Assembly: GCF_002127655.1 (NCBI RefSeq)
Contig: NZ_NEHB01000014.1
Coordinates: forward strand, 2,864 to 66,863
Reading direction: 5' to 3'
Source of the DNA: Janthinobacterium sp. GW456P
GTDB lineage: Bacteria > Pseudomonadota > Gammaproteobacteria > Burkholderiales > Burkholderiaceae_D
DNA: 64,000 nt
The notes under the pieces are model-generated. The model was not told the origin of the DNA. It searched no databases and saw only the letters and a list, made by a program, of their open reading frames with translations. This document shows, piece after piece, positions 20,465 to 51,968 of the stretch; within the stretch, counting starts at the first letter, position 1; each line of letters opens with the position of its first letter. A program made the translations under genes and the position numbers.

Positions 20465-22813
<2,349 letters not shown>

Positions 22814-22907
22814 GGTTGTTTCCAGAGCGATCAAGCCTGGAATGATACGCAATCGGCGCGATTGCGCAATCTTGACAGCGCAAATGGACTGTGCGTTGAC
22901 AAGCGGC

Positions 22908-23273
22908 CTAGCGGGCCGGCAGCAGCGGGCTGGCGGGTGCGGGAGTTGGCGGCCTCTGCGGCGTGACGGACTTGCCGAAGGCATTGCCCATGCGGTGTTC
23001 GAGGGCGGCGCGGTTGTACAGCCCCAGTTGGTTCGACGGGCGCTGCATGACCGCTTCGGCGCCGGACAGGGTGGGCGGCGGCCGGTTCAGGGTGTTGCTG
23101 TTTGGCAATAATTTTTCAGTCAGGCACGACATCGATGGCGCGCGCTGGCCTTGCCCTTCCGCTTCCGCGCAGCCTTTCTGGGGGGCGGGTGCCTTCACGA
23201 CGACGGTGTGCTCGTCCGCCTGCGCGGGCAGGGCGGCGCAGATCAACAGCAACAGCGATAACAGGCGTGCCAT
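22908..23273 (-). CDS. small secreted hypothetical protein
   Basis: A 121-residue protein with a clear signal peptide ([19 protein letters not shown], residues 1-19). A polar, proline-rich mature region with two cysteines follows (C in QKGCAEAE and SMSCLTEK), and no domain I recognise. ATG 23273 is preferred over the ATG eight codons upstream because the signal peptide begins there. It is divergent from the STN/ECF operon at 23468. Confidence 0.6.
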
Positions 23274-23467
23274 GGCGGCTCCCGGAGCGGTGGACAAGCG
23301 CTCAGCATAGCAAAGTCATGTGTCGCAGTGATGACACGCCAGCCCGGCAGCTATATGACCGATGTCATGCAGTTGTCATTTTACGCAGCTACCATCCTGC
23401 CATTCTGCAGACAACATTGCAGTCAAGACACTTCATGAGCAGGATTTTTCGTTGATTCCCCTGGAAA

Positions 23468-24196
23468 ATGACACTAAGCCACCGCCGCGCCGCAAGGGGC
23501 AATGCCCTGTCCGCCTGCTTGCTGATGACATTGATGACATTCATGACATTCGCGCGGCCCGCTGCCGGTGCGGATGGCGCTGATGCCAGCGCGCACTCTA
23601 CCCTGCGCTTCGACTTGCCCGCCCAGCCGCTCGACGCGGCCCTGGTGGCGTTTGGCGAAGTGACCGGGTACTCCGTGCTCGTCAGCAGCCAGCTGGCGGC
23701 CGGCAGAGTGGCGGCGCCCGTGCGCGGCGAGTATACGCCGGCCGAAGCACTGCAGCGCCTGCTGGCAGGCACGCAGCTGGGCGCGCGCTTCAGCGGCAGC
23801 AATGCGTTTACCTTGCTGGCGCTGGCCGACGCCCCTGTGGCGCCGGCGCCCGTGCCGGCCGAGGCCGCTCCCGCCGCGCCACCGTTGCAAGGCTACGCGT
23901 CCGTCCTGCAGCGCTCGCTCACGCGCGCCCTGTGCCGCTTGCATCCGGACGCCTTCGGCCGCTACCGGCTGGCCTTCCAGCTGTGGCTGGACGAGCGGGG
24001 CAAGGTGCGCGACGTGCACGTGCTCGAAGGGAGCGGCGTGGAACAGCGCGACCGCGCCGTGTTGCAGCGTTTGCGCAGCCTGCTGATGGATGGCGTGCCG
24101 CCGGCGGGTTTGCCGCAACCGCTGACGATTTTACTGACGCCGCGGCCCGACCCCGGCGCCGATTGCGCGCCCTACCTGCCGGCCGGAGCGCCCTGA
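23468..24196 (+). CDS. free-standing STN domain plus TonB C-terminal-like domain protein
   Basis: A 242-residue exported protein: hydrophobic leader (about 12-34), an STN (secretin/TonB short N-terminal) domain at about 46-118 (LRFDLPAQPLDAALVAFGEVTGYSVLVSS, read in part), a Pro/Ala linker (120-140), and a TonB-C-like domain at about 145-226 (FQLWLDERGKVRDVHVLEGSG, in part). STN domains normally sit on FecA-type receptors and talk to FecR anti-sigma factors. Here the module is detached from any barrel and lies 2 nt upstream of an ECF sigma gene and its FecR. It is the likely periplasmic signal transmitter of this operon. The function is inferred. Confidence 0.7.
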   Translation: MTLSHRRAARGNALSACLLMTLMTFMTFARPAAGADGADASAHSTLRFDLPAQPLDAALVAFGEVTGYSVLVSSQLAAGRVAAPVRGEYTPAEALQRLLAGTQLGARFSGSNAFTLLALADAPVAPAPVPAEAAPAAPPLQGYASVLQRSLTRALCRLHPDAFGRYRLAFQLWLDERGKVRDVHVLEGSGVEQRDRAVLQRLRSLLMDGVPPAGLPQPLTILLTPRPDPGADCAPYLPAGAP

Positions 24197-24198
24197 CG

Positions 24199-24756
24199 AT
24201 GTCGGACTTGCTGAAAGCCACCTTGCGCAAGCTGTTCCTGGAACGCTACGGACAGTTTCGCCGCCACCTGCAGCGCCGCCTGGGCTCGGAAGACCTGGCC
24301 AACGATGCGCTGCATGAAACATATTTAAGAGTGGAAAAGATGACCGCGCCCGAGGCGATCAGCTACCCGTCCGCCTACCTGATGCGCATCGCCATCAACA
24401 TTGCGGAAGATCAACGCCGCGACAATGCGCGCCTGCTCAGCCTGCCCGATATCGACGATCTGTACGAGATGGCCGACGAGCTGGCCGACCCGGCCCGCAC
24501 CTACAGCGCGCGCGCCGAAATCGAGGAACTGGAACGGGCGCTGCAGGAGCTGCCGAAACGCCGGCGCGCCATCGTCATCGCCGCCCGCGTCGATCAGTTG
24601 CCGCACCGCGACATCGCCGAGCGCTTCGGCATTTCCGCCCGCACGGTGGAGAAGGAATTGCGCGCCGGCCTGGAACATTGTTGCGAGCGCATGGGACGCG
24701 ATTTCATCCAGCGCTTCGGTCCCGGCGCGGGAAAAACGTCTACACATCATGACTGA
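24199..24756 (+). CDS. ECF RNA polymerase sigma factor, FecI-like
   Basis: A 185-residue group IV sigma factor. Region 2 is at about residues 10-75 (FRRHLQRRLGSEDLANDALHETYLRV, in part), and region 4 is at about 115-170 (LPKRRRAIVIAARVDQLPHRDIAERFGISARTVEKEL, in part, containing the HTH). The start ATG 24199 is 2 nt after the STN gene, and the end overlaps the anti-sigma gene by 8 nt, so the three are co-translated. Its likely targets are tpsA and tpsB, which share a promoter-like motif that ends in CTGTC. Confidence 0.88.
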   Translation: MSDLLKATLRKLFLERYGQFRRHLQRRLGSEDLANDALHETYLRVEKMTAPEAISYPSAYLMRIAINIAEDQRRDNARLLSLPDIDDLYEMADELADPARTYSARAEIEELERALQELPKRRRAIVIAARVDQLPHRDIAERFGISARTVEKELRAGLEHCCERMGRDFIQRFGPGAGKTSTHHD

Positions 24757-25696
24757 ACAAGCGGAAGACGATATGGGTGTCATCCAGAAGGAAGCGCAGG
24801 CGTGGGTCGTGCGCCTGGCCTCGGGCCAGGTCAGCGAGCGCGATGCGCAAGTGTTTCGCCACTGGTGCGCGCGCAGCCGCAAGCATGCGACGGCGTTTGC
24901 CGAGGCGCGCGCCGTGTGGAGTGCGATGGCGCCCGCCGCGCATGCGGTCAAGCGGGCGCAGGCACCCGTGAACGTGGCGCGGCGCGCCTGGCTGGGCGGC
25001 GCAGTGGCTGCCTCGCTGGGCTTGCTGGTGCTGCGCCCGCCCACGGACCTGTGGCCGGCCGTGGCGGGCCTGGGCGCCGACTACGCCACCGGTACGGGCG
25101 AGCAGCGCGAAGTGGCGTTCGATGGCGGCGTGCTGGTGCAGATGAATACGCAGACGCGTCTCGACGCGGCGCCCGTGCAGGACGGCGCCGCGGCGCTGGT
25201 GCTGCTGGCGGGCGAGGCGGAATTCCAGGCCGGCCTGCGCGGTGCGGCGAGGGTGCGCGTGCAGGCGGGCGACGGCATGGTGTCGGCCGGCAGCGCACGC
25301 TTCAATATCCGCCTGTTCGGCCAGGAAGTGTGCGTGACGTGCCTGGCGGGCCGCTTGCGCGTGGCGCAGGCCGGCAACGATGCGGAGCTGGCCGCCGGCC
25401 AGCAGCTGCGTTACCGGCCCGAGCATTTCGGCATCGCCCGCGCCGTGGAAAAAAGCGACGTCAGCGCGTGGCGCCACCGGCTGCTGGTGTTTAAACAAAG
25501 CACCCTGGCCGAGGTGGTGGACGAGGTGAACCGCTACCGTCCGGGCAAGCTGATCCTCAATGGTGACGCCTTGAAGCACACGCGCGTGCAAGCGAGCTTC
25601 TCGCTCGACCGCCTCGACGATGTGATCGCCCTGATCCAGGATGCATATGGCGCGCGCGTGACGCGGCTGCCGGGCGGCATCGTGCTGTTCGGCTGA
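24749..25696 (+). CDS. FecR family anti-sigma factor / transmembrane regulator
   Basis: A 315-residue FecR-type protein: an N-terminal sigma-binding domain (about 12-52, EAQAWVVRLASG..), a single membrane segment (about 80-95, AWLGGAVAASLGLLVL), the FecR beta domain (about 105-205), and a C-terminal STN-like domain (about 245-315, STLAEVVDEVNRYRPGKLIL). It should hold the sigma factor inactive until a periplasmic signal arrives, here probably via the separate STN/TonB-C protein. The first 8 nt overlap the sigma gene. A perfect 10-bp inverted repeat follows the stop codon. Confidence 0.87.
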   Translation: MTEQAEDDMGVIQKEAQAWVVRLASGQVSERDAQVFRHWCARSRKHATAFAEARAVWSAMAPAAHAVKRAQAPVNVARRAWLGGAVAASLGLLVLRPPTDLWPAVAGLGADYATGTGEQREVAFDGGVLVQMNTQTRLDAAPVQDGAAALVLLAGEAEFQAGLRGAARVRVQAGDGMVSAGSARFNIRLFGQEVCVTCLAGRLRVAQAGNDAELAAGQQLRYRPEHFGIARAVEKSDVSAWRHRLLVFKQSTLAEVVDEVNRYRPGKLILNGDALKHTRVQASFSLDRLDDVIALIQDAYGARVTRLPGGIVLFG

Positions 25697-25699
25697 GGC

Positions 25700-25721
25700 C
25701 CGCCTTGGCACGCCAAGGCGG
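25700..25721 (+). promoter_or_regulatory. perfect hairpin after the anti-sigma gene
   Basis: CCGCCTTGGC-AC-GCCAAGGCGG is a 10-bp perfect stem starting 4 nt after the stop at 25696. There is no T tract, so it is not a classical terminator. It could stabilise the regulatory mRNA or attenuate read-through into tpsA. Confidence 0.5.
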
Positions 25722-25731
25722 AGCGCCAATT

Positions 25732-25777
25732 ATGACATTTTCATGACCTTTTGCAGTCCCGGACCTTGTTCCCTGTC
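25732..25777 (+). promoter_or_regulatory. candidate ECF-type promoter of tpsA
   Basis: ATGACATTTTCATGACCTTT precedes GCAGTC (25753-25758). A 14-nt spacer follows, then CTGTC (25773-25777). The same elements with exactly the same 14-nt spacing occur upstream of tpsB (39601-39625). CTGTC fits the GTC-type -10 of many ECF sigma factors. The start codon of tpsA lies about 105 nt downstream. Confidence 0.55.
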
Positions 25778-25882
25778 AATGCTGCTGGAAGCCGCGAATC
25801 AGTGCCTGCCGCCCGCCCCGTGCGTGCCGCGCGCCGCCTCGCGATATCGGTCAGCAACGGAACATGAAAAGGGAATGTCGCC

Positions 25883-28800
25883 ATGCAGCGAAGCAAGTCG
25901 GTCACGAAACACGCATCCTCCTCCGCCATGGCGGGCAACCGGACCGGGCGCCCGGTGCGCCTGAAACCGCTGGCGCTGGCCATCGCCATGCTGCTGCAGA
26001 CGGGCGGCGTGCAGGCGCAGCAGCCGTTCAGCGGCGCCTGGTTTGCGGGCAAGGGCGCGCAGCAGGGCACGGCCGCCGCCACCGGACGCTTGCCGAATGG
26101 CCAGGCCATCATCGGGACGGACAATAAGCAGGCGCAGCAGCAAAAAGCCAATGCGCAGCTGCAAAGTTCGCTGAACAATCTGCAACTGGCGGCGCGCGCC
26201 ATCGCGGTGCAGCAGGCGGCCCAGCAGGCGGCGCGCCAGGCGGCCATCGCCGCCGGCGCGAAGGTGCCGGAAGGCCTGGCCGAAGGCGGCTTGAAAGTCG
26301 ACAGCAACAGCCTGACGGCAGGCTGGTTCAATGCGAATGGCCCCACGCAGGCGCAGGCCGATGGCAAGACCGTGGTGACCGTCAAGCAGACGGCCGACAA
26401 GGCGATCCTGAACTGGGAGACGTTCAATATCGGCCAGAATACCACCCTGCAATTCGACCAGTTGGCGAACTGGTCCGTGCTCAACCGGGTCAACGATCCG
26501 CTGGCCCGGCCCAGCCAGATCCGTGGCCAGATCAAGGCGGACGGCACGGTGATGCTGGTCAACCGCAACGGCATCCTGTTTACGGGCAGCAGCCAGGTCG
26601 ACACGCGCAGCCTGGTGGCCGCCGCCGTGGGCATGAGCGACAGTCAATTCAAGAAGGGCATCTACAGCGAAACGCTGGGCTCGGGCTTCAAGCCCACGCT
26701 GGCCAACGACCTGGTGCTAAACGGCAGCGTGGCCACGCACGGCAACGCCACGGCCGACGTGGTGGTGCAGGCCGGCGCGCAGATCAGCACGCGCAAGCCG
26801 CAGACGGTGACGGAAGGCGGCGGCTATGTGCTGCTGGCCGGGCGCGAAGTGCATAACGGCGGCAGCCTGTCGGCGCCGAACGGCCAGGTGACGCTGGTTG
26901 CCGGCGACAGCTTCGTCATCCGCAAGGGGCTGGGCACGGACGCCAACCAGACCTCCAGCACGCGCGGCAACGAGGTCGACGCCAAGTTCAACGCGCACAG
27001 TGGCGCCGGCACGGCGATGAATACGGGCCTGGTGCAGGCGCTCACCGGCGACGTCACCCTGGTGGGCCGCGACGTGCAGCAGGCCGGCGTGTTGCTCAGC
27101 AGCACCAGCGTGACGACACGCGGCACCGTGCACCTGAAGGCCGACGGCAGCGACGGCCTGGTCACCCTGGCGCCGGACAGCCTCACCACGGTACTGCTCG
27201 ACGACAGTGGCGCCACCGCGCTGGACGTGCAGCGCGATGCGCTCATCAAGGACTCAGCCCTGCTCAGCGACGGTGCCTACAACCGCCGCGACCTCTCGCT
27301 GATCCAGATCGCCTCCGGCCGTGACATCGTCTTCGACAGCGGCTCGCTGACCCTGGCCACCGGCGGCCAGGTCAATGCGCTGGCCACGCGCCGCACGCAA
27401 GTCGCGCGCGGCGCCAGCATCGACGTTTCCGGTGCCGTCGGCGTCAACGTGGCGATGGCTTCGAACAACGTGCTGATCAATGCGCAGGGCAACGAGCAGC
27501 GCGACGCGCCCGGCAACCGCGACAGCAAGGTGCTCAACAACGCCGACCTGTGGGTCGACCGGCGGGACCTGGTACGCGTGGCGGCCGGCACGAATGGCTA
27601 TCCTACCGACCGCTGGTACACGGGCGGCGGCTTGCTCGAAGTGAGCGGCTATCTGAACACCAGTGGCCATGGCATCGGCGAATGGGCGGCGCAGGGCGGC
27701 ACGGTGGCGTTCAAGGGCGGCGAACTGGTGACCCAGGCCGGTTCCTCGCTCAATGTTTCCGGCGGCACCTTCGACGTCCAGACCGGGATGATTCGCCAGA
27801 GCTGGCTCAGCGGCAAGGATGGCCAGCTGTACCGGTTGTCGACGGCGCCCGGCGACGTGCTCTATAGCGGCCTGTATCGTGGATTCGAATCGTTGCACAA
27901 GCGCTGGGGAGAGGGGGCGACCGAAAACTTTGCCAACCCCCTGATCGGCGCGCGCGAACGCCTGGAAAACGGCTATATCGTGGGCCGTGACGCTGGCCGC
28001 GTCATCGTCGGCACCGGTTCCGCGGTGCTCGAAGGCGGCATCGAATCGAGCGTGTTCCAGGGCGAGCGCCAGAAGGCGACGCGCGATGCCACCCTGGATA
28101 GCTACCGCCAGTCGCAGCTGGCGGCGCCCCGCAAGGGAGAATTGCTGCTGGGCCAGATCGTGCCGGTATTCGATGCCACCAGCGCACAGTTGCGCGACAA
28201 CCCGACGGCCCTGCTGCAGTCGCTGCACGTCGGCACGGCCGGCGCTGGCAGCGCCCCAATGGCCGCGCCCGGCCTGCCGGACGCCATGCCTGACAGCCTG
28301 GTCGGCAAGGCCTTCCTCGATGCGGGCTGGCTCAACGCCCAGCAACTGGGCGGCTTCAAGGCCTATGTCACCGGCGGTATCGCGGTCGATGCCGCCGTGC
28401 AAGTCGCTCCTGGCGGCGAGATTGCGCTGCACGCTCCCGAGGTAGCAGTGAATGCCGGCTTGAGCGCGCGCGGCGGCAGCATCGCCCTCGGCGACATCGT
28501 CAACAAGCTGGCCAGCAGCGGCAATGGCTGGATCGACACCGTCATCGCGCCGACACCGAAAGGGCAGACGGCCGGCATCAAGGTCGCATCCGGCGTCACG
28601 CTCGACACCCGCGGCCTGTGGAGCCAGCTGCAGCTGGACCCGAGCGACATTTCCGGCTTGCCGTACGTCAATGGCGGCAAGGTGTCGCTGGTCGGCAGCG
28701 GCGCCGTCACCCTGGCTGCCGGCAGCGTCATCGACACTTCCTCCGGCGCGGCCACGCTGGCCAATGGCAAGTTGCAGGGCGGGCGTGGCGGCAACATCAC

Positions 28801-31800
28801 TCTCAAATCAAACCAGAACGACGTCGATGGAAAAGGCTCGGCGGCGCTGGTGATGGACGGCGAGTTGCGCGGTTACGGCGTGAAGGGGGGCGGCACGCTG
28901 AGCATCGATTCCGGCATCGGCGTGGCCATCGGTGGCGGCGTGCTGGCCGAGAACGGCATCTTGCCGGCGGGCCAGTCTGTTCCGGTGCACCTGACCCTGG
29001 CAGAGGCCTTCACCATCAAGGCCGGCACGGTGCTCGACAGCGATTTCAGCTATATCAGCAACCGTCTTGCGCCCGGCCAGCCGTTGCTCGACCTGCCTGA
29101 CTTCAGCGTGTCGCGTCCCTACACCCTGGCTGCCCCGTGGGTGGTGCCGCCGGCCTCGGTCAGCTGGGAATATATCTACATCGGCGCCACGAATGGCTCC
29201 ACGTACATGTCCGGCATGACCGTGCCGGCAGGCGTCACGCTGAACAGCGTGCAGGGCAAGCTTGGCTCCGGCTACCTGGTACCGGCCGCGGCGTTCCCGA
29301 ACGGCATGCCCGTCGCTCCCTATAGCGCGATAGTGGCCGCCGGCACCGCGTTTGCGGCGGACGTGACCCTCAACGCGGGTGACCGCCTGATGGCCGGCAA
29401 CCGCGTGCCGCAGGATCTGGCGATCAAGCCGCTGCTGATACTGGACAGTTCCCTGTTCCAGCGCGGCTTTGCGCACTACGACATCAGTGGCCAGCAAGGC
29501 GTGCAGGTGGCGCAGGGCGCCGCCATCGACGTGGCGATGCCGGTGCTGCGCGCCGATCCGGCGGTGGCGCGCACGCTGGCCAGCGGCGCCGATCCCGCCG
29601 CCGCCTTGCAGCCGTGGCTGGGGCCGCAGTGGCAGGAAGACGCCGTCAAGGGCGTGTTGACGCAACGCGCCGGCGCCGATATCGCCTTGGCGGCCGGCAC
29701 CCGCAGCGCCAAGGCGCCGCTGGTGATCGGCCAGGGCGCCGCGCTGCGTGTGGACGAGGGGCAGAGCATCAGCCTCACCGGCAATGGCCAGGTCACGGTG
29801 GAAGGCAAGCTCAGTGCCGCCGGCGGGCGCATTTCCGTGCTGCCGGGCCTGCTGGTCACCGGTAACGAGAGCAATCGTCCGGATGGCAGCGCCAATGCCC
29901 AGTCGATCTGGATCGGCGACGGCGCGGTGCTCGACGTGGCCGGCCGCGCGGCCACCGCCATCGATGCCCAGGGAGGCGTGTATGGCCATGTCGGCAGCGG
30001 CGGCACCATCGAGATCGGCGCCAGGCACAAGCTTGACGCCACCCGGGTCGAGGCGGCCGACGCTTTTGTCGTGCTGCGTCCTGGTGCGCGCCTGGAAGCG
30101 TCCGGCGCAGCGGCCACACTTGACCTGCCCGGCCAGGGCAGCGTGCTGGTGGCCGGCGACGGCGGCAGCATCGCGCTCAGCTCCTTCCGTGGACTGTTCC
30201 TTGACGGCGGCATGCATGCGGCGGCCGGTGGCGCGGGCGCGGCCGGCGGCACCCTGGCGCTGAACCTGGAAACACCGAACTACGGCATCGTCGGCAAGAT
30301 CGACTTGAAGGGACTCGTCGTCGAAGACGCGGTGCGCGTGCCGCGCGAACTGGTGGTGTCGCGCCTGCAGGGCGACAGCGGCCTGGCCAGCGACCTGATG
30401 GCCGGCGACAGGGACCCGGCGCTGCGCTACGGCGCGGCGCGCCTGGGCGTCGACCGCATCCAGGCCGGCGGTTTCGACCACCTGGCCCTGCTGTCCAACG
30501 GCTTGCTCAGCTTTGATGGCGATGTCGACCTGTCGCTGGGACAAAGCCTGCGCCTGACCGCCACCTCGCTGGCGCTGGGCCAGAAGGCCGACGCCGCCAC
30601 GCAGGTCAGGCTGGCGGCACCGTATATCCGCCTGTCGGGCACCACCCGTACGCAAGCCGATGACCATTTGCTGCCCAACCCGGTCAACGGTTCGGGCAAT
30701 CTCGGCGCGGGCGGCGGCAAGCTGGGCACGCCGGCCGTCGCCGACACTGCGCGCCTGGCCCTCGATGCCGCCTTGATCGACCTTGCCAACACCGTCAATT
30801 TCGGCGCCAATGGCAGCATCGTGCAGAACGTCGCCAAGGACCTGGAAGTCAAGCGTGACGCCTTTGGCGAGCTGGAACTGCGCAGCAGCGGCGATATCCG
30901 CATGCTCGGCGATGCCGCGCTGTACACGCCCGGCAACCTGACCCTGGCGGGCGCGCAGATCTATCCTGCCAGTGGCGCCAAGGGTCGCGTGATCGTTGGC
31001 CAGAAATCGGTGCTCAACGAGTACGGACAGATGGTGCGCCAGTTCGACCCCGCGCGCAGCCTGACCATCGAGCGCGCCGGCGATCCGTCCGCGCCGCTGC
31101 CGGCCATGCCGTACTCGGTATTCGGCTCGCTCGAACTGGGCGCGGCCACGGTGAACCAGGGCGGCGTGTTGCGGGCGCCCTTGGGCAAGATTGCGGTGGG
31201 CATGAACGGCTCGGGCGCGGTGACCAGCCAGCTCAATGTGCTGCCCGGCAGCGTGACCTCGGTCAGCGCGAATGGACTGGTCATGCCTTACGGCGGCACG
31301 CTCGACGGTCTCAGCTACATGTATGACGGCGACGACGTGGCGTACAAGGGCGTGGGCAACGATCCGGCGATCGTACTCGCCGGCAAGAGCGTCGACGTGC
31401 GCGATGGTGCCGTGCTCGACATGACGGGCGGCGGCAGCCTCATGGGCGCCGCTTTCCTGGCCGGGCGCGGCGGCTCGACCGATGCGCGCCTCAATCCATT
31501 GGTGCAGACCTCGGCCAAGGGTGGCTTCGTGCTGCCCGGCCTGGCCACCAACCCCGTCTACGCCATCGTGGCCGGACCGCAGGCCGCCTATGCGCCTGTC
31601 GTTGCCGAGAACGGCGCGGGCGATCCGGCGCTGGGCCGCCAGATTACTATCGGCACCGGCGTGCCTGGCCTGGCGGCCGGCACCTACACCTTGCTGCCGT
31701 CGAGCTTTGCCCTGTTGCCGGGCGCCTTCCGGGTCGAACTCAATGGACTGGCGGCCGGCGGCATGCCCATGGGGACGGCCACGGCCATGCGCAATGGTTC

Positions 31801-39574: not shown

Positions 39575-39580
39575 GATTTA

Positions 39581-39625
39581 TGAACATTTGATGACATTCG
39601 GCAGTCGCCGCGCGCGGCGGCTGTC
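39581..39625 (+). promoter_or_regulatory. candidate ECF-type promoter of the tpsB operon
   Basis: ATGAACATTTGATGACATTC-like sequence, then GCAGTC (39601-39606), a 14-nt spacer and CTGTC (39621-39625), repeating the arrangement upstream of tpsA. The spacer itself contains the palindrome GCCGCGCGCGGC. It lies 92 nt upstream of the tpsB ATG and would drive tpsB and the exbB-exbD-tonB-porin genes. Confidence 0.55.
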
Positions 39626-39716
39626 TAGGCATCAGTAGATCAGCATTAGCAATAAACAATACGCCGGCCCAGCGCCGCAACACAGGGCAACCGTTTGATT
39701 TTAAGGTGAATGGAAG

Positions 39717-41354
39717 ATGCGTGAAATGACAAGCAAGGGCAGGGGCGTGCCGCCAGCGGCGCCCGCGACCGCCTTGACGATGCTGTGCCTGGCCATGCTG
39801 GGGCTGCCCGGCATGGCGCGCGCGCAGGATGCGGTGCCGGCGGCGGCTCCCGTGGCCGCGCCGGAACGGCAGGTGACGATCGAGGAATACCTGGTGCGCG
39901 GCAATACCGTGCTCGATGCCCGCGCCATCGAGGCAGCCGTGACCCCATTTCTGGGGCCGGGGCGCACCCTGAAGGATGTGGAAGGCGCGCGCGACGCCCT
40001 CGTCGCGGCATATCAAGCCCGTGGCTACCAATCCGTCTACGTCGACTTGCCGGAGCAGCAGGTGGAGCAGGGCGTGGTGGTGCTGCAGGTGAGCGAAACC
40101 AAGGTGGGCCGGCTGCGCGTTGTCGGCGCGCAATACAACTCGCCGCTCGACGTGCGCCAGCAAGTGCCGGCCCTGACGGAAGGCAAGGTGCCCGACTTTA
40201 CGCAGGCGCAAGTGGAGCTGACGGCGCTGAACCGCGGTCCCAAGCGCCAGGTGATGCCGCTGGTCAAGCAGGGCAGCCTGCCCGGCACCATGGACGTGGA
40301 CCTGAAGGTCGAGGACAGCAGCCCGTGGCGCGCCAACGTCGGCCTGAACAACGACTACAGCGCCGATACGAAAAAATTGCGCACGAGCATGTCGGTCGGC
40401 CACGACAACCTGTGGCAGCTGGGGCACAGCGCCACCATCAGCTTTTTCGGCACGCCGGGCGACCTGAACCAGACCAAGGTGTGGTCCGCCTCGTACGTGG
40501 CGCCGATCGGCACGCAGGGCTGGAGCGTGGAAGCGACCGGTTACCAGTCGAACAGCAACGTGGCCAGCACAGGCGGCACCAGCGTGCTGGGCAAGGGGCA
40601 TGCGCTGGGCATGAAGCTCAACTACACGGTGCCCAACAGCGGCATCTGGTGGCACAGCTTTTCTGCCGGCATCGACTTCAAGGATAACCAGGAAGCGCTC
40701 ACGCTCAATGGCACGGGCAGCAATATTCCGCTCAAGTACGTGCCGCTGAGCGTGTCGTACAACGGCTTTGCGCAGACGGAGACAGCGACCTACGGCCTGG
40801 GCCTGTCGCTGGTGGCCGGCACGCGCGCCGCGTTCGGCTACGGCAGCGACAGCGCCGCCTACGACAACAAGCGCTACAAAACTTCGCCCAGCTTCCTCGT
40901 GCTGAAGGGCGACGCCAACGCCACGTATACCCTGGGCAGCGGCGCGCAGCTGCATGGGCGCATGTCGGGCCAGCTGGCCGATGCGGCGCTCGTGTCGGGC
41001 GAGCAGATGGCCGCCGGCGGCGCCAATTCCGTGCGCGGCTACCTGTCGGCCGAAGCGACGGGCGACTATGGCGTGTCCGGCACGGTCGAATGGCGCACGC
41101 CCCAGCTGACGTATTTCAGCCGCCTGGAAAACTGGCGCTTGTTTGCCTTCGCCGATGGCGCGCGACTGCGCCTGCGCGATCCGATGATCGAGCAGAAAGA
41201 TCTGTTTGGCCTGGCGTCCGTGGGCGTGGGCAGCAGCTTCCAGTTCCTGCGCTACTTGAATGGCCGCATCGACTTTTCGTATCCGCTGCGCGATGGCCCG
41301 CGCACGCACAAACACGTGCGCCGCATCAATTTCAACCTGTCGGCCAGCTACTGA
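39717..41354 (+). CDS. TpsB outer-membrane transporter (ShlB/FhaC/HecB family)
   Basis: A 545-residue Omp85-superfamily protein that secretes and folds the adjacent TpsA through the outer membrane. The signal peptide ends at ARAQ (about residue 37). POTRA domains cover about 50-210 (VTIEEYLVRGNTVLDARAIE; then LRVVGAQYNSPLDVRQQVP, in part). The ShlB barrel extends from ~215 to the end, with a GGANSVRGYLSAE motif (~436) that corresponds to the conserved loop L6 VRGY tetrad, and a C-terminal aromatic (SASY). It is the first gene of a long transcription unit ending at 47370. Confidence 0.93.
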   Translation: MREMTSKGRGVPPAAPATALTMLCLAMLGLPGMARAQDAVPAAAPVAAPERQVTIEEYLVRGNTVLDARAIEAAVTPFLGPGRTLKDVEGARDALVAAYQARGYQSVYVDLPEQQVEQGVVVLQVSETKVGRLRVVGAQYNSPLDVRQQVPALTEGKVPDFTQAQVELTALNRGPKRQVMPLVKQGSLPGTMDVDLKVEDSSPWRANVGLNNDYSADTKKLRTSMSVGHDNLWQLGHSATISFFGTPGDLNQTKVWSASYVAPIGTQGWSVEATGYQSNSNVASTGGTSVLGKGHALGMKLNYTVPNSGIWWHSFSAGIDFKDNQEALTLNGTGSNIPLKYVPLSVSYNGFAQTETATYGLGLSLVAGTRAAFGYGSDSAAYDNKRYKTSPSFLVLKGDANATYTLGSGAQLHGRMSGQLADAALVSGEQMAAGGANSVRGYLSAEATGDYGVSGTVEWRTPQLTYFSRLENWRLFAFADGARLRLRDPMIEQKDLFGLASVGVGSSFQFLRYLNGRIDFSYPLRDGPRTHKHVRRINFNLSASY

Positions 41355-41410
41355 CGGGCCAGCTCAACAGCACTGCACTTTTTTAGACTTTTCTTCGGAG
41401 AATCACTGTC

Positions 41411-43192
41411 ATGCAACGTTTTCTTTTTCTGCTCACGATCCTGGGCACGCTCGTTCCCGGCCTGGCGCATGCCTGGTGGCAGCCCGACTGGGCTTACCGC
41501 AAACCCGTCACCGTCGACGCCGGCCCGAAGGCGGGCGCCGTGGGCGGCGATCCAGGCCGCATTCCCGTGCTGCTGCGCTTGCATTCGGGTAACTTCAACT
41601 TCGAAGGCGTCAGCGACAACGGCGCCGACCTGCGCTTCGTGGCGGGCGACGACAAGACGGTGCTGAATCACCAGATCGAGCAATTCAATCCACTGTTGGG
41701 CATCGCCCTGATCTGGGTCGACGTGCCGGCCCTGACGGCCGGTACGCCGCAGCAGCTGTGGATGTACTACGGCAATCCGAAGGCGCCCGCTTCCGGCAAT
41801 GGCCAGCGCACGTTCGACCCCGACTACAGCCTCGTGTATCACTTCAGCGAACCGGGCGTGCCTTCGCGCGACAGCACCGCCTACGGCAACCATGCCCAGA
41901 CAGCCGTGCCGGCGCTCGACGGTTCCGTCATCGGCGCCGGTGCCCGCCTGGGCACCACGCCATTGATGCTGCCCGCCTCGCCATCGCTGGCGCAGGCTGC
42001 CGGCGCGCCGTTCACCTTTTCCGCCTGGGTGCGTCCGGACAGCCTGGGCGCCCAGCAAGTGCTGTATGCGCGCCGCGACGGCGCCAATGAATTGCTGATC
42101 GGCGTCGACCAGGGCGTGCCTTTCGTGCAGGTGAATGGCCAGCGCAGCAAGCCGGGCCAGCCTATCCAGGCCGCGCAATGGTCGCACCTGGCCGTCAAGG
42201 CAGACAAGAATAATGTGGCCCTGTACGTGGGCGGCCGTCCGGCCGTCTCGCTAGCCACGGCCCTGCCAGCGTTCGCCACGGCCGCCTCGGTGGGCGCCGA
42301 TGCAGTGCCGACCGCTTCCGGCGCCACCACCCTGGCCAACTTCACGGGCGCCATCGACGAGCTGCGCCTGTCGCGCACGGCCCGTCCTGACGCCCTGCTG
42401 CTGGCCGACGCTGTCTCGCAAGGTTCCGAATCGCGCCTGGCCGTGTTTGGCGCCGATGAACAGCAGGCCGGTAAAAGCCATTTCGGCTTCATCATCGCCG
42501 CCATGCCGCTCGACGCGTGGATCGTTGTCGGCGTGCTGGGCCTGATGATGGTCTTGTCGTGGATCATCATGATCGGCAAGGGCCGCAGCTATGGCGCCAT
42601 CTCGCGCGCCAATGCGCAATTCATGCAGTCGTTCCACGAAGCGGCCGGCGCGCCGCTCGACCACCTGGCGCGCAACGGCAAGCTGAGCGCTTCCGTGAAG
42701 ACGGATTCCTCGCTGTGGCGCCTGTATGACGTGGCCATCGACGAGATGCGCCGCCGCCACGACCGCGGTTACGACTTGAACGCCGTGTCGAACGCGACGA
42801 TCGGCGCCATCCGCGCCGCCATGGATGGCGTGATGGTGCGCGAAAGCGAGCGCATGTCGAAACGCATGATCTGGCTCTCGACCACCATCGAAGGCGCACC
42901 GTACGTGGGTCTGTTCGGTACCGTGATCGGCATCATGCTGGTGTTCGTCGTGGCGGCCATGGCCGGCGCCGTGGACATCAACTCGGTGGCGCCGGGCATG
43001 GCGGCAGCGCTGCTGTGTACGGCGGCCGGCCTGGGCGTGGCGATTCCCGCCCTGTTCGGCTACAACTGGCTGTCCTCGCGTTCTGACGCCATCGTCGCCG
43101 ATATGGCCGTCTTCGTCGATGAGTTCGCCACGCGCCTGGCGGAAGAGCAGGGCGACGGACGCCAGATGCGTCCCGCGCTGCATCAGGCGTGA
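41411..43192 (+). CDS. ExbB/TolQ/MotA-type proton channel fused to a DUF2341 + LamG-like periplasmic module
   Basis: A 593-residue fusion. Signal peptide at 1-21. DUF2341-like domain starting WWQPDWAYRKPVTVD (~22-115). Concanavalin/LamG-like lectin fold (~135-335: SLVYHFSE, APFTFSAWVRPD, WSHLAVKADKNNVALYVGG). First membrane segment ~361-387, then a cytoplasmic loop (~390-495) and the ExbB pair of helices at ~500-520 (GLFGTVIGIMLVFVV) and ~527-553 (GMAAALLCTAAGLGVAIPAL). The C-terminal third makes it a proton-channel subunit. The front two thirds should sit in the periplasm and could bind glycan or the TpsA chain. exbD follows after 12 nt. Confidence 0.87.
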   Translation: MQRFLFLLTILGTLVPGLAHAWWQPDWAYRKPVTVDAGPKAGAVGGDPGRIPVLLRLHSGNFNFEGVSDNGADLRFVAGDDKTVLNHQIEQFNPLLGIALIWVDVPALTAGTPQQLWMYYGNPKAPASGNGQRTFDPDYSLVYHFSEPGVPSRDSTAYGNHAQTAVPALDGSVIGAGARLGTTPLMLPASPSLAQAAGAPFTFSAWVRPDSLGAQQVLYARRDGANELLIGVDQGVPFVQVNGQRSKPGQPIQAAQWSHLAVKADKNNVALYVGGRPAVSLATALPAFATAASVGADAVPTASGATTLANFTGAIDELRLSRTARPDALLLADAVSQGSESRLAVFGADEQQAGKSHFGFIIAAMPLDAWIVVGVLGLMMVLSWIIMIGKGRSYGAISRANAQFMQSFHEAAGAPLDHLARNGKLSASVKTDSSLWRLYDVAIDEMRRRHDRGYDLNAVSNATIGAIRAAMDGVMVRESERMSKRMIWLSTTIEGAPYVGLFGTVIGIMLVFVVAAMAGAVDINSVAPGMAAALLCTAAGLGVAIPALFGYNWLSSRSDAIVADMAVFVDEFATRLAEEQGDGRQMRPALHQA

Positions 43193-43204
43193 GGGGGCAT
43201 AACC

Positions 43205-43615
43205 ATGGCCACCTCCGCCAAGTTTACCCCCCGCAAGCGTAGCGGCGGCATCAACATCACGCCCTTCGTCGACGTGTTGCTGGTGGTGCTGGTGATCTTC
43301 ATTTTGACCAGCAACGCCAGCATTCCCGGCATCAAGGTCGACCTGCCCAAGGCCAGCTCGGCCATGGCGCTGGAAAAACCGAAGACCAAGGCCATCACCA
43401 TCGACAACGCGGGCCAGGTCTTCCTCGATGCCTATCCCGTCACCTTGCCCGAGCTGGAAGAGCGCTTGCGCACGGAAAAGGCGCTGACGCCCGACTTTCC
43501 CGTGATCGTGCGCGGCGATGCCGCCGTGCAATACGCGAAAGTGGTCGAAGTGCTGGACCTGCTGCGCCGTATCGACCTGAACCAGGTGGGTCTGGTGACC
43601 GGCAAGCCGGCATGA
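43205..43615 (+). CDS. ExbD/TolR family biopolymer transport protein
   Basis: A 136-residue ExbD-type protein with one membrane helix near residues 20-37. The conserved proton-pathway aspartate is Asp23 in TPFVDVLLVVLVIF. The periplasmic domain ends in VVEVLDLLRRIDLNQVGLVT, in part. With the upstream ExbB fusion and downstream TonB-like protein it forms a complete Ton-type motor. Gaps are 12 nt upstream and 10 nt downstream. Confidence 0.92.
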   Translation: MATSAKFTPRKRSGGINITPFVDVLLVVLVIFILTSNASIPGIKVDLPKASSAMALEKPKTKAITIDNAGQVFLDAYPVTLPELEERLRTEKALTPDFPVIVRGDAAVQYAKVVEVLDLLRRIDLNQVGLVTGKPA

Positions 43616-43625
43616 GGAGCGCAAG

Positions 43626-44342
43626 GTGAAGCGTGACGACATGATGAAGATGGCCGGCTCGGAATCGTCGGGCGCGGTGCAGTGGTGGCGCCGCTGGGGC
43701 GGCGTGGCCGGCGGCGCGCTGCTGGCCGCTGGTCTGGCCGCGCTGGTCTGGTATTTGCTGTCCGATACGGCGGCCACCAAGCGCGAAGTGGCGGCCCCGC
43801 CGATGCTGATGCTGCCACCGCCGCCACCGCCGCCGCCGGAACCGGAAAAATTGCCGGAACCGACACCGGACAAGGTGGTGCCGGAAGTGTCCGAGCCGGA
43901 ACCGACGCCTGCCGACAAGCCCATGGATGACGCGCCGGAAAGCCCGTCGCCGGACAAGGGCGACCCCGTCACCATCGACGGCGCGGCGCAGGCCGGCAGC
44001 GATGCGTTCGGCATCCAGGCCGGGCGCGGCGGCGGCATGACGGGCGGCGGCGGTGGCGGCGGACTCGGCGCGGGATCGTATGGCCGCTACGTGGCCAACG
44101 CGCTGCAGCTGGCGTTCGCCCGCGACCCGCGCACGCGCCAGCTGGCGTTTGCCGACATCCGCGTCGACCTGTGGCTCGATCCGGAAGGCAAGACGACGAA
44201 AGTGCAGCTGGTGCAAGGCACGGGCAATGCGCAGACGGATGAGCAGGTGCTGGCCATGGTGCGCGATTTCCGCGCCGATGAGCGGCCGCCGGCATCCCTG
44301 CGTTTCCCGGCCCGCGTTTCCATCAAAGGCCGGCGCCCGTAA
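43626..44342 (+). CDS. TonB-like energy transducer
   Basis: A 238-residue protein with one N-terminal membrane helix (about 27-47), a rigid Pro/Glu-rich spacer (about 57-105, including eight consecutive prolines) and a Gly-rich hinge (GGGMTGGGGGGG, about 135-150). The C-terminal TonB-like domain covers about 150-238 (FADIRVDLWLDPEGKTTKVQL, in part). It should couple the ExbBD motor to an outer-membrane partner, possibly the porin or TpsB next door. The start is GTG 43626, with AGGAG at 43615-43619 overlapping the exbD stop. Confidence 0.85.
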   Translation: MKRDDMMKMAGSESSGAVQWWRRWGGVAGGALLAAGLAALVWYLLSDTAATKREVAAPPMLMLPPPPPPPPEPEKLPEPTPDKVVPEVSEPEPTPADKPMDDAPESPSPDKGDPVTIDGAAQAGSDAFGIQAGRGGGMTGGGGGGGLGAGSYGRYVANALQLAFARDPRTRQLAFADIRVDLWLDPEGKTTKVQLVQGTGNAQTDEQVLAMVRDFRADERPPASLRFPARVSIKGRRP

Positions 44343-44379
44343 GCGCATGACTTTAATTCCTCATTTACCGAAAGAAGCG

Positions 44380-46113
44380 ATGAATTCCATATTTTCTTCC
44401 CCACAGCGTGCGCGCCGTCTTCCGCTGGCGTTCGCTGCCCTGGCCCTGAGCGTGGCGGCAGGCGCCGTGCAAGCGCAGGCACCGGCCGACAGCACCATGG
44501 TCAAGCTGATCCGCGGCTTGATCCAGAGCGGCGCCCTGAACAAGGATGCCGGCGAAGCCTTGCTGGCGCAGGCGCAGAGCGAAGCGCTGGCCGCGGCGCA
44601 AGCCCGCCCGGCCGCCGCGCCGGCCGCCCTGGCCCAAGTGCAGCCGGGCGACGTGCGCGTGCCGTATATTTCGCAAACCGTGCGCGAGCAGATCCGCGAC
44701 GAGATCAAGGGCCAGGTCATGGCCGAGGCCAAGGCGGGCGGCTGGGCGGCGCCGAATGAAACGCCGGCCTGGACCAAGCGCATCCGCCTGGAAGGCGACG
44801 TGCGCGCGCGCTACGAATCGCGCTATTACGACATGGCCAACAGCAATATCGAGATCGACTGGCGCTCGCTCAACAGCGGCAGCGGCTACGACGTCAATTC
44901 GAACACGAATCTGGCCCTGCCGGCGTTGCTGAACACGCGCGAAGACCGCAAGCACTTGCTGCGCGCCCGTGCCCGCCTCGGTATCCTGGCCGACATTTCC
45001 GACACCACGCAAGCGGGCATCCGCCTGGCCAGCGGCAATGACGACAGCCCGGTCTCGACCACGCAAACCCTCGGTGGCGGCCTGGGCAAGAAGAACATCT
45101 GGCTGGACCAGGCCTGGTTGTCCTACCAGCCCGCTTCCTGGCTGAAACTGACGGCGGGCCGCTTCGACAATCCATTCGTGTCCGGCGACGAACTGTTTTC
45201 CAGCGAACTTAATTTCGACGGCATCGCGGCCAAGGTGCAGCAGCCGGTCGGCGAGAGCAAGGACGTCACCGTGTTCGGTACCCTGGGCCTGATTCCGCTC
45301 GAGTATTCGTCCGACAATGCGCCTAGCCGCAGCCAGGCAAAAATGTCCAGCGAAAACAAGTGGCTGCTCGGTGCGCAGGTGGGCGCCTCGTGGAAGATCA
45401 ATAGCGACCATCAACTGCGCGGCGCCGTGGCCTACTACAACTTCCGTAACATCAGCGGCGAATATTCGCAGCCGTGCGCGCTGTACGCGGGTGCCGATGG
45501 CTGCAGCACCGACTGGTCGCGTCCGTCGAGCATGCAAAAGGGCAATAGCTTGATGTTGCTGCGCAATATCGCCTTGAACCCGCTGGACCCGGCGAATACG
45601 CCGCAGCCGCAATTCGTCGGCCTGGCCTCGAAATTCCGCCTGGCCAACCTGAATGCGCGCTGGGATAGCAAGGTCGCGGGCGGCACGGACTTGCGCATCG
45701 AAGGCGATTATGTGCGCAACATGGCCTATGACAAGAATGAGATGTGGGCGCGCGCCAAGGGCGGCATCATGAACAACTTCGGCGGCACGGGTGGCGTCTC
45801 GCAAGCCGATTTCAAGAGCGGCGGCAATGCCTACATGCTGCAGGCCACCCTGGGCAAAGCGAACCCGGCGGCGCGCGGCGACTGGAACGTGCTGCTCGGT
45901 TACAAGCGCATCGAACCGGACGCTTTGCCTGACGCCTACAACGATTCCACCTTCCACCTGGGCGGCACGAATGCGCGCGGCTACTACCTGGGCGGCGCGT
46001 ATGCGCTCGACAAGAATACCTGGCTGAACGGCCGCTGGACGTCGAGCCGCGAAGTGTTCGGTTCGGCACTGTCGATCGACACCCTGCAAATCGAATTGAA
46101 CGCGCGTTTTTAA
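44380..46113 (+). CDS. putative outer-membrane porin (Porin_5 type)
   Basis: A 577-residue predicted beta-barrel. Signal peptide (~1-35, ending VQAQ). A periplasmic helical part with an Ala/Gln-rich stretch (~40-120) resembles the family's N-terminal region. A barrel from about 130 onward has alternating strands and ends in LQIELNARF with the C-terminal phenylalanine needed for BAM insertion. ATG 44380, after GAAAGAAG, is preferred to ATG 44347. It lies between the TonB-like gene and a coiled-coil gene in the same operon. Confidence 0.83.
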   Translation: MNSIFSSPQRARRLPLAFAALALSVAAGAVQAQAPADSTMVKLIRGLIQSGALNKDAGEALLAQAQSEALAAAQARPAAAPAALAQVQPGDVRVPYISQTVREQIRDEIKGQVMAEAKAGGWAAPNETPAWTKRIRLEGDVRARYESRYYDMANSNIEIDWRSLNSGSGYDVNSNTNLALPALLNTREDRKHLLRARARLGILADISDTTQAGIRLASGNDDSPVSTTQTLGGGLGKKNIWLDQAWLSYQPASWLKLTAGRFDNPFVSGDELFSSELNFDGIAAKVQQPVGESKDVTVFGTLGLIPLEYSSDNAPSRSQAKMSSENKWLLGAQVGASWKINSDHQLRGAVAYYNFRNISGEYSQPCALYAGADGCSTDWSRPSSMQKGNSLMLLRNIALNPLDPANTPQPQFVGLASKFRLANLNARWDSKVAGGTDLRIEGDYVRNMAYDKNEMWARAKGGIMNNFGGTGGVSQADFKSGGNAYMLQATLGKANPAARGDWNVLLGYKRIEPDALPDAYNDSTFHLGGTNARGYYLGGAYALDKNTWLNGRWTSSREVFGSALSIDTLQIELNARF

Positions 46114-46119
46114 GGAGCC

Positions 46120-46809
46120 ATGATGTTGATATCCAACAAAATGCGCTTGCCGCTTTTGCTGCTGATGCTGCTGGCCGGCGGCACGGCCCAGGCGCAGGCG
46201 CAGAAGGGGCAAAGCATGGAAGAGCGTTTGCGTGCCGAGCTGCGTAATGTCACGGCGCAATTGCAGCAGACGCGCGGCGAACTGGAAGCGCTGAAAGCCA
46301 AGGGTGCGCCGGCCGCCAAGGCGGCGCCGGAGGCCGCACCCGCCAGCGAGGGCTTGAAAAAGGAACTGGCGCGCAGCCAGTCGCAGCTGGCGCAAGAACG
46401 CGCGCAGCGGGAAAAGCTGGGCGAGCAGCAACAGCGCAGCGCGGCTGCCGCGCAAGAGGCGGCCGCCAGTGCGGCGCAGTACCGCCAGGCCAGCGAGCAA
46501 TTGACTGCCACGGGCAAGCAGCTGGCAGCGGAACGGGCGCGCCTCGATGGCGAAGTGACGGCCCAGCGCAGCGCCCTGGCGCGCTGCGAAAGCAAGAATG
46601 CCCAGCTGTATGCGGCCGGGCAGGAGATCCTGCGAGCGTATGAAGGCCTCGGCGTGCTGGACGTCATGAAGGCGCGCCAGCCGTTCGCCGCGCAAAGCAG
46701 AGTGAAACTCGAGCAAATCGCGCAGCAGTACGGCGACCAGCTGTACCAGGGCCGCTTTGATGCGCGTCAAACAGAAACACCTGCCGCGCCCGCGCCGGCC
46801 CCCCAATAA
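46120..46809 (+). CDS. periplasmic coiled-coil protein of unknown function
   Basis: A 229-residue protein: signal peptide (about 1-27), then almost continuous heptad-like helix (about 30-185), rich in Ala, Gln, Glu, Lys and Arg. A short conserved-looking end (YEGLGVLDVMKARQPFAAQSRVKLEQIAQQYGDQL, in part) and a Pro/Ala tail follow. I recognise no enzyme domain. AAGGAG at 46112-46117 overlaps the porin stop, so the two are translationally linked. It could be a scaffold or spacer for the envelope complex encoded in this operon. Confidence 0.7.
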   Translation: MMLISNKMRLPLLLLMLLAGGTAQAQAQKGQSMEERLRAELRNVTAQLQQTRGELEALKAKGAPAAKAAPEAAPASEGLKKELARSQSQLAQERAQREKLGEQQQRSAAAAQEAAASAAQYRQASEQLTATGKQLAAERARLDGEVTAQRSALARCESKNAQLYAAGQEILRAYEGLGVLDVMKARQPFAAQSRVKLEQIAQQYGDQLYQGRFDARQTETPAAPAPAPQ

Positions 46810-46834
46810 TCTTTTTAAAATGAATGGAACGACG

Positions 46835-47323
46835 ATGGAAAATACCAACACCTTGCTGACCACCCTGAATGCGGAACAAACGGCCGAGGCCATCAAGACT
46901 GCCGGCTGCGCCGTCACCAGCATTGAACACGATGGCGTCGTGCGCCTGCACAGCGCCAGCCATGGCATCGGCTTCCAGGTGCTGTGGGGCAATGAGGCCG
47001 CGCCCGGCCAGTACGCGGACCTGACCCTGAGCTGCCCGCTGCGCGTGCAGGGCGGCGACTTGCCGGCCGGCTTGCTGGCCGAATGGCACCGCAGCAAGCG
47101 TTTCGCCCGCGTGGCCCAGCATGGCGATTTCGTCGTGCTGGAGATGGATGTGCTGGTTGCCGGCGGCGTCAGCAAGGATTACCTGAATATCAATCTGCAA
47201 CTGTGGACGCAGATGATGGGACAGTTCTTCTTGTTTTTGCGCAACTTTACGCCGGCCGATACGAGCACGGCACCGGTAGTCGAGGCCGCCAGCGTGACCG
47301 AAGAAGAAACTGTGCCGGCCTGA
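46835..47323 (+). CDS. YbjN domain-containing protein
   Basis: A 162-residue protein whose body (LNAEQTAEAIKTAGCAVTSI.., then LTLSCPLRVQG.. and LLAEWHRSKRFARVAQHGDFVVLEMDVLVAGGVS, in part) matches the YbjN/T3S-chaperone-like sensory fold. There is no signal peptide, so it is cytosolic. ATG 46835, with GGAAC 5 nt upstream, is chosen. ATG 46820 is also possible. It is the last gene of the operon, with a terminator 21 nt after the stop. A chaperone or regulatory role in the system is only a guess. Confidence 0.7.
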   Translation: MENTNTLLTTLNAEQTAEAIKTAGCAVTSIEHDGVVRLHSASHGIGFQVLWGNEAAPGQYADLTLSCPLRVQGGDLPAGLLAEWHRSKRFARVAQHGDFVVLEMDVLVAGGVSKDYLNINLQLWTQMMGQFFLFLRNFTPADTSTAPVVEAASVTEEETVPA

Positions 47324-47343
47324 TAAGCTATCCACAGGCGGCG

Positions 47344-47370
47344 AAAAAAGGCCCATGACGGGCCTTTTTT
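47344..47370 (+). terminator. intrinsic terminator closing the tpsB-exbBD-tonB-porin operon
   Basis: AAAAAAGGCCC-ATGAC-GGGCCTTTTTT has a strong stem and six T, and the A/T symmetry makes it bidirectional. It follows the YbjN gene directly. Confidence 0.92.
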
Positions 47371-47523: not shown

Positions 47524-50637
<3,114 letters not shown>

Positions 50638-50686
50638 CGCTGCCGCACGCGTATACTTGGCAATTCTCTCTTGCCAGGTATACCGC

Positions 50687-51832: not shown

Positions 51833-51968
51833 ACTAGAAAAAAGTTGCTTCCGCTGAAGGCAACCGTGATAATTCCTTGACGTAAACCTATTGTGCCGTC
51901 CATCATGGTGCAGAAGTGAATGGCATGGTTTGCCCACGGTAGCTCACTAATGGAAGAATGGCGTTGCA

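Follow-up and report, generated by a model that had tools for sequence, protein, structure and literature searches.

The locus and its known relative

The subject of this analysis is a gene cluster in a 64,000-nucleotide stretch of DNA from Janthinobacterium sp. GW456P (the window), in which a giant two-partner secretion (TPS) exoprotein, TpsA, and its transporter, TpsB, lie beside a signalling module and a TonB-type motor. Each gene named by the original prediction was found on the plus strand and in the order it gave, as judged by coordinates and Pfam domains. The eleven genes were as follows (scores in brackets are E values).

23468-24196, plus strand: VreA-like protein with a signal peptide (by eye), an STN domain (23669-23815) and a TonB/TolA-type C-terminal domain
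24199-24756, plus strand: extracytoplasmic function (ECF) sigma factor, VreI-like (Sigma70_r4_2 1.4e-15, Sigma70_r2 2e-6)
24749-25696, plus strand: FecR-type anti-sigma factor, VreR-like (FecR 3.9e-12, DUF4880 1.1e-10)
25883-39574, plus strand: TpsA exoprotein of 4563 amino acids, with a TPS domain at 26408-26629 (TIGR01901 7.5e-18) and DUF3739 at 38927-39259 (3.2e-39)
39717-41354, plus strand: TpsB transporter, with POTRA at 39876-40097 (POTRA_2 2.1e-15) and a ShlB barrel at 40284-41234 (1.9e-21); CdiB 6wim 5.3e-6
41411-43192, plus strand: fusion of DUF2341 (41618-41818), LamG (41996-42385) and an ExbB/TolQ channel (ExbB 42785-43105), all by Pfam
43205-43615, plus strand: ExbD/TolR (ExbD 3.5e-29)
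43626-44342, plus strand: TonB-like protein with a transmembrane helix, a Pro-rich and Gly-rich linker and a TonB/TolA C-terminal domain (44157-44312)
44380-46113, plus strand: outer-membrane porin of the Porin_5 family (Pfam 2.9e-191)
46120-46809, plus strand: coiled-coil protein, probably exported, matching no Pfam family
about 46820-47323, plus strand: YbjN-type protein (YbjN 1.3e-7)

The sigma and FecR genes shared 8 bases. The VreA-like protein matched Pfam STN at 1.9e-10; its TonB_2 match (0.005) was under the cut-off of that family, and its TIGR01352 score of 26.4 bits lay below the curated cut-off of 27.1, which the TonB-like protein exceeded with 30.5 bits. The family profiles of the two proteins matched each other (hhalign 99.2%, E 1.6e-19), and by this comparison their C-terminal domains are homologous. 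In an AlphaFold model of the TonB-like protein, the C-terminal domain had a predicted local distance difference test score (pLDDT) mostly above 90; the best Foldseek matches of this domain were TolA domain III (1lr0, E 3.3e-3, probability 1.00) and TonB homologues, none of which reached E 0.001. The ExbB part of the fusion protein matched TolQ/ExbB structures by sequence, and the fusion is a conserved family (A1). In TpsB, apparently only a short Ala/Pro-rich stretch (39717-39875) precedes POTRA, and most classical TpsBs examined were longer there by the same heuristic. Published work is cited here and below from the consulted parts of each paper; DUF2341 is described as an uncharacterised appendage of ExbB/TolQ-type channels (PMC12505986).

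By gene content and order, the window locus is a PUMA3-type (VreAIR-Pdt) system, a kind already known. A sigma-controlled TPS-ExbBD-TonB cluster is not new as such: one was published as PUMA3 of P. aeruginosa, with VreA (STN plus a TolA/TonB-like domain), VreI, VreR, the TPS pair PdtA/PdtB, exbB2-exbD2-tonB4, the porin PA0696, PA0697 and PA0698 (PMC2729926, PMC7035377, PMC4971064). Its giant surface protein is under phosphate-starvation and surface-signalling control in Pseudomonas (PMC2729926, PMC7035377, PMC4971064). Hxc and phosphatase genes are also driven by P. aeruginosa PUMA3, and PUMA3 homologues were reported in 2009 beside TPS, ExbBD and PA0696 genes in other genera, including Janthinobacterium (PMC2729926). 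What is unexpected in the present analysis is the comparative evidence on the TpsA tail.

The window was compared with PAO1 by published description and with the loci of other Pseudomonas by sequence. The TPS, ExbB, ExbD, TonB, porin and PA0697/0698-type genes formed the same set in the same order, and the run of tpsB, ExbB, ExbD, the TonB homologue and the PA0696-type porin matched that of other Pseudomonas loci. Like its P. aeruginosa counterpart, the window VreA has an STN and a TolA/TonB-like C-terminal domain and no barrel (the single-protein TonB match is just under the cut-offs and the family-profile match is strong), and genes for an ECF sigma factor and a FecR-type anti-sigma factor adjoin it. 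The window differed in its arrangement: tpsA comes immediately after vreAIR and is itself followed at once by tpsB, so that there are no genes for Hxc type II secretion, phosphatase or phdA among them. The closest named relative was a Janthinobacterium metagenome-assembled genome (MAG), with 97% over the fusion protein among the best 80 of at least 585 relatives, from which the window's own record was perhaps left out.

The window was also searched for TGTCATN5TGTCAT, which we take to be the Pho-box pattern. Three matches lay upstream of genes of the locus.

23363-23379, plus strand: Pho-box-like site upstream of vreA, 0 mismatches
25732-25748, minus strand: Pho-box-like site upstream of tpsA, 1 mismatch
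39580-39596, minus strand: Pho-box-like site upstream of tpsB, 2 mismatches

With up to 2 mismatches there were 7 matches in the 64 kb against 2.43 expected, a number reached by 2 of 100 shuffles; the four matches other than these three lay elsewhere in the window. The three places correspond to the vreA, tpsA and tpsB-side promoters at which PhoB sites are described in P. aeruginosa. The largest gaps within the gene set were the 186 bases before tpsA and the 142 bases before tpsB. As both of these gaps and the gap before vreA hold Pho-box-like sites, the locus probably consists of three transcription units rather than one.

Other known systems shared parts of this set. The window pair has a TPS domain and a ShlB-type transporter with POTRA as in classical TPS (FhaB/FhaC, CdiA/CdiB), but differs in having DUF3739, the tail motifs described below, a dedicated motor, a porin and a coiled-coil protein. 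The ECF sigma factor, FecR anti-sigma factor and STN domain are those of FecAIR/FoxAIR cell-surface signalling; however, no TonB-dependent receptor barrel was present among the eleven window genes, and the STN domain belongs to a small protein that also has a TonB-like domain, or to TpsA in three genomes. The ExbB/TolQ and ExbD/TolR channel and the TonB/TolA-type C-terminal domain resemble TonB-ExbB-ExbD and TolA-TolQ-TolR, whereas the window ExbB bears a large DUF2341-LamG module.

The motor and the DUF3739 exoproteins across genomes

The original prediction held that the motor belongs with TpsA and TpsB, and named genomes with motor genes and no tps genes, or the reverse, as evidence that would speak against this. 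The distribution across 299 genomes of the order and 396 of the phylum (six positive genomes common to both) bore the prediction out, the one exception lying at the end of a contig. These searches scored the best first-look candidates of each genome (6 in the order fusion search, 3 in the phylum search), so that an absence means no match among these candidates. Of the 299 order genomes, 27 matched the fusion by its N-terminal part; two of them (G052, G229) had weak matches in the LamG region, leaving 25. DUF3739 was found in 26 order genomes, including all 25 with the fusion; in the single DUF3739 genome lacking the motor (G120), TpsA ended less than 400 bases from the contig end, so that the next gene was not visible. 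An ExbD and a TonB-like gene came after the fusion in 25/25 neighbourhoods. When the phylum set was searched, DUF3739 was present in 21 of 396 genomes and the fusion profile (E <= 1e-60) in the identical 21, the match in G496 being cut by a contig end. No genome among the 299 and the 396 had the fusion without DUF3739. ShlB-type TpsB was found in 149 of the 299 order genomes, and since the 26 DUF3739 genomes lie within this number, 123 had TpsB with neither DUF3739 nor the motor. By this distribution, the DUF2341-LamG-ExbB motor goes with the DUF3739 class of TpsA.

Classical sites served as controls: 20 stretches covering 11 classical TpsB sites in 7 genomes (four sites in the window's own) gave no match to ExbB, ExbD, DUF2341 or Porin_5 at E 1e-6 and none to DUF3739 at E 1e-4, with the profiles used above. 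The transporter was recognised by the TpsB profile at 10 of the 11 sites.

The order of genes was followed in 80 named loci, which were the best 80 of at least 585 relatives and thus favour close relatives. TpsB preceded the fusion in 78 of them, and the other two had no upstream contig. ExbD was present in 80, the TonB-like gene in 79, Porin_5 in 77, the coiled-coil gene in 71 and YbjN in 49. The full order TpsB-fusion-ExbD-TonB-porin-coil was retained in 68/80; among the 12 others were six short contigs, four loci without the coiled-coil gene by profile (L109, L110, L151, L171) and two (L166, L182) that failed the count because their long stop-to-stop frames sort differently. Named loci with this order came from alpha-, beta- and gammaproteobacteria, from Verrucomicrobiota and from one Myxococcota MAG, indicating that the arrangement is not due to chance. 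Some loci had peculiarities of their own. L151 is a contig labelled Bacillus subtilis SK7B5 that carries this Gram-negative locus at 61% to the window fusion protein, and is probably a contaminating contig. TpsA of a Paraburkholderia MAG (L141:1992-4663) was in several DUF3739-bearing pieces, and some VreA-less relatives (L069, L072, L074-L076) had a tandem pair of ExbD genes after the fusion and before the TonB-like gene.

The signalling genes were less constant. Full-length VreA, with both domains, was found in 14 of 41 DUF3739 genomes and was missing from 27. In the named set (49 genomes, from the 80 named loci) it was found in 35; G701 was excluded, its sole match being the STN domain of a receptor. 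The VreA-less order genomes had no ECF or FecR match to the window proteins within the 18-20 kb stretches examined, ECF/FecR presence being judged within locus stretches. Four Bradyrhizobium loci (L165, L166, L170, L172) had an ECF/FecR pair beside tpsB, yet no VreA was found genome-wide. The motor and TpsA persisted where VreA was absent, indicating that the motor follows TpsA and not VreA; judged from these surveys, VreA is an optional part of the system. The view of the whole set as one machine was therefore retained for the coupling of the motor to TpsA/TpsB and not for the signalling module, which is not constant.

Several genomes held further VreA and TpsA genes. The window's own genome (G000, contig C1) has a second VreA-ECF-FecR-TpsA set (L078, 2631-18437, and L079) with no motor gene in the 36 kb examined; a further ECF gene comes next, and some 10-17 kb beyond there are other genes of ECF, FecR and receptor type. 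Ten VreA and nine DUF3739 matches were counted in Rhodoblastus sphagnicola (L160/G690), and nine and seven, respectively, in a Hyphomicrobium MAG (L168/G697); by these counts the two genomes hold large families of separately controlled TpsAs.

The C-terminal tail of TpsA

C-terminal of DUF3739, TpsA ends in a low-complexity tail, in which two motifs were recognised, the second resembling the first.

39374-39409, plus strand (residues 4498-4509): tail motif 1, PSLFTVKVLGFG, an isolated strand-like motif and candidate docking site of the TonB-like protein
39473-39571, plus strand (residues 4531-4563): tail motif 2, YQPAGVVQVLGAG... plus a terminal helix, candidate docking site of VreA

Motif 1 lies near the tail end, and at the very end in several VreA-less genomes. 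Its 9-residue pattern was present in 112 of 128 tails, compared with a mean of 0.44 and a maximum of 2 in shuffled tails; among the 16 tails without the pattern, most showed variants by eye, and L196 was the clearest miss. The motif was found in none of the three complete classical TpsA tails, all from the window's genome (one scored -1.5 bits, two were unreported, and one of the three is a weak control with last residues that look out of frame). When TpsA residues 4200-4563 were modelled, DUF3739 was well predicted, and model residues 300-329, which include motif 1, had pLDDT below 50; this is expected of a linear motif that is not part of the fold, although low confidence alone is no proof of disorder.

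Motif 2 followed VreA. By pattern, it was present in 13 of 14 VreA-bearing and 0 of 27 VreA-less genomes of set 1 (Fisher 8e-10), and in 29/35 and 0/13, respectively, of the named set, set 2 (1.4e-7; ten rows mis-parsed). The tails of set 2 came from 80 of 103 DUF3739 matches, and both motif patterns were drawn up after tails had been viewed, some of them from the named set, so that set 2 is not fully blind. A motif 2 profile, trained on 15 set 1 tails, gave for VreA-bearing against VreA-less genomes 34/35 and 2/13 in set 2 at 3 bits and 33/35 and 2/13 at 5 bits; in set 1 the values were 13/14 and 2/27 at 3 bits and 10/14 and 1/27 at 5 bits. At 15 bits, a cut picked after the scores were seen, motif 2 was present in 42 of 49 VreA-bearing and 0 of 40 VreA-less genomes of both sets, and these 89 genomes are at most 88, since G390 and G664 seem to be one genome (identical contig coordinates). 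Within VreA-bearing genomes, the motif was carried by 41 of the 46 TpsAs that have VreA on their own strand 3-22 kb upstream, vs 26 of 41 others (p 0.005). In Methylosinus (G687) it occurred solely on the TpsA behind VreA (33.6 bits vs 1.2 and -0.6).

A more direct connection was seen in Sphingomonas gei, where one frame of 4145 amino acids has at its end motif 1 followed by a linker and an STN domain (Pfam 5.5e-15). This TpsA has no motif 2; its cluster (L182) also contains ECF and FecR genes, and a separate VreA lies elsewhere in the genome. Such TpsA-STN fusions were found in 3 of 99 genomes of the S. gei family (Sphingomonadaceae), the query's own included. The other two, G805 and G711, matched the S. 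gei fusion from DUF3739 through STN at 57% and 53% identity; their STN domains were seen by eye, the Pfam score being that of the S. gei protein only, and G711 is seen over an open frame of 819 amino acids. An STN domain is known to partner with the periplasmic portion of an anti-sigma factor (PMC11637429). The position of an STN domain on the exoprotein tail argues that the TpsA tail is periplasmic and linked to the signalling module.

The literature search, which covered mainly open-access papers, found no paper on DUF3739, and no description of the tail motifs or of TpsA-STN fusions was found in titles and abstract openings, subscription literature lying mostly outside the search. An outer-membrane partner for the C-terminal domain of VreA was a speculation of the 2009 paper (PMC2729926). 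The tail motifs name a concrete candidate for this partner, TpsA itself, and give short peptides for testing.

Explanations of the tail and the motor

Taken together, the comparative evidence suggests that the TpsA tail is a meeting point of motor and sensor. The best explanation, to which we give an even chance, is a PUMA3-type system in which a periplasmic TpsA tail is docked by the motor through motif 1 and by VreA through motif 2. Export of TpsA through TpsB would halt at the folded DUF3739 cap, leaving the disordered tail in the periplasm, as has been described for the FhaB prodomain, a C-terminal region that is kept there (PMC8263021). The TonB-like protein would dock on, or pair with, motif 1, and the motor would control the holding or release of TpsA. 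Where VreA exists, its TonB-like domain may bind motif 2 while its STN domain touches FecR, so that the occupancy of the tail or the state of TpsA would be reported via FecR to the sigma factor, which, as in P. aeruginosa, would drive tpsA and the motor genes. Some Sphingomonadaceae have the STN domain joined directly to the TpsA tail. The earlier idea that the state of TpsA feeds back to the sigma factor is retained as a suggestion from the tail motifs, the VreA link and the fusions. More tentatively, and with somewhat less than an even chance, the giant TpsA may be tethered across the outer membrane, with a proton-driven motor holding or pulling its tail, and motif 2 or the fused STN domain informing the sigma factor. 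If true, this would be a surface fibre that reads force or occupancy, and would give a function to DUF2341-ExbB channels and to VreA. The near-perfect coupling of DUF3739 TpsAs to the motor singles out a TPS class that may break the rule of no energy source.

Several observations weigh against docking of the tail by motor and sensor. Deletion of vreA in P. aeruginosa left the activity of PvreA, PpdtA and PphdA and virulence unchanged (PMC7035377, PMC4971064), and insertions in the tonB homologue, tpsA, tpsB and PA0696 did not lower VreI-induced zebrafish lethality (PMC2729926). Data on binding, energy dependence, tail topology or TpsA retention and release were not found in the consulted parts of the PUMA3 literature (PMC2729926, PMC7035377, PMC4971064). 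Pairing was not strict: G628, G630 and G428 had two fusions each, TpsA was sometimes some 15-40 kb off or on another contig, and several genomes had more TpsAs than motors (e.g., three vs one in G286). Motif 1 resembles what we take to be the TonB-box consensus only loosely, and might instead bind another partner such as TpsB. The 15-bit cut for motif 2 was a late choice, and even at that cut 7 of 49 VreA-bearing genomes were without the motif; exceptions were the Stenotrophomonas-type G390/G664, G512 and G591, G428, Luteibacter (G682) and Sphingomonas gei (G707). Finally, the VreA label changed only 4 times on a tree of 65 motor proteins, indicating that few independent events carry the correlation between VreA and motif 2.

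These few changes favour the view that motif 2 is the mark of a TpsA subclade inherited with VreA by descent, with no contact between the two. However, the association held in distinct beta/gamma and alpha clades as well as in Magnetospirillum, and it held within single genomes such as that of Methylosinus (G687); the TpsA-STN fusions are independent support for a link between tail and sensor. We consider descent alone rather unlikely.

The motor, porin and coiled-coil protein could also form a separate uptake or envelope system (e.g., one serving a phosphorus source) that is under the same phosphate and sigma control as the TPS pair and has no physical role in handling TpsA. The three Pho-box-like sites, the place of Porin_5 beside the motor, and the control of Hxc and phosphatase genes by P. 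aeruginosa PUMA3 (PMC2729926) are in keeping with such a companion of the regulon, but the motor stayed with TpsA/TpsB across phyla and in the 27/41 genomes without VreA, and the fusion never occurred without DUF3739 among the 299 and 396 genomes, which makes this improbable in our judgement. Equally improbable to us is that the motor energises TpsB, opening or resetting its pore or driving translocation via TpsB or the porin, with the tail motif as a TpsB- or porin-docking strand. In 78 of the 80 named loci TpsB does come before the fusion gene, and the examined TpsBs of this class were short before POTRA and seemed to leave no space for a plug helix (a heuristic estimate); on the other side, reconstituted TPS translocation needs no external energy (PMC5422565), a close TpsB of the same genome likewise has a short N-terminus, yet no motor, and this account does not explain why motif 2 goes with VreA.

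The lack of a plug helix was dropped as a hallmark of the motor class, as the motor-less TpsB of the same genome is also short and the start heuristics are weak. A contact-dependent inhibition (CDI) toxin system of the CdiA type was rejected, since Pfam at E 0.01 found only DUF3739 and no toxin family in TpsA; where CDI would have an immunity gene, tpsA is followed by tpsB. Ordinary regulation of a TonB receptor was rejected as well, since the cluster has no TonB-dependent receptor (plug plus barrel), and its only barrel besides TpsB is Porin_5.

At the end of the gene set, one further feature was read from the sequence.

about 47344-47370, plus strand: inverted repeat with a T tract, a likely terminator, AAAAAAGGCCC-ATGAC-GGGCCTTTTTT

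This repeat was absent from the list of a simple terminator scan, and no RNA element reached its gathering score in 20000-50000. The flanks (20465-22984, 47524-52649, 53707-58407) were of housekeeping type, with Tex on the minus strand, an SNF2-type helicase (by eye), a histidine kinase with a response regulator, and glutamate synthase.

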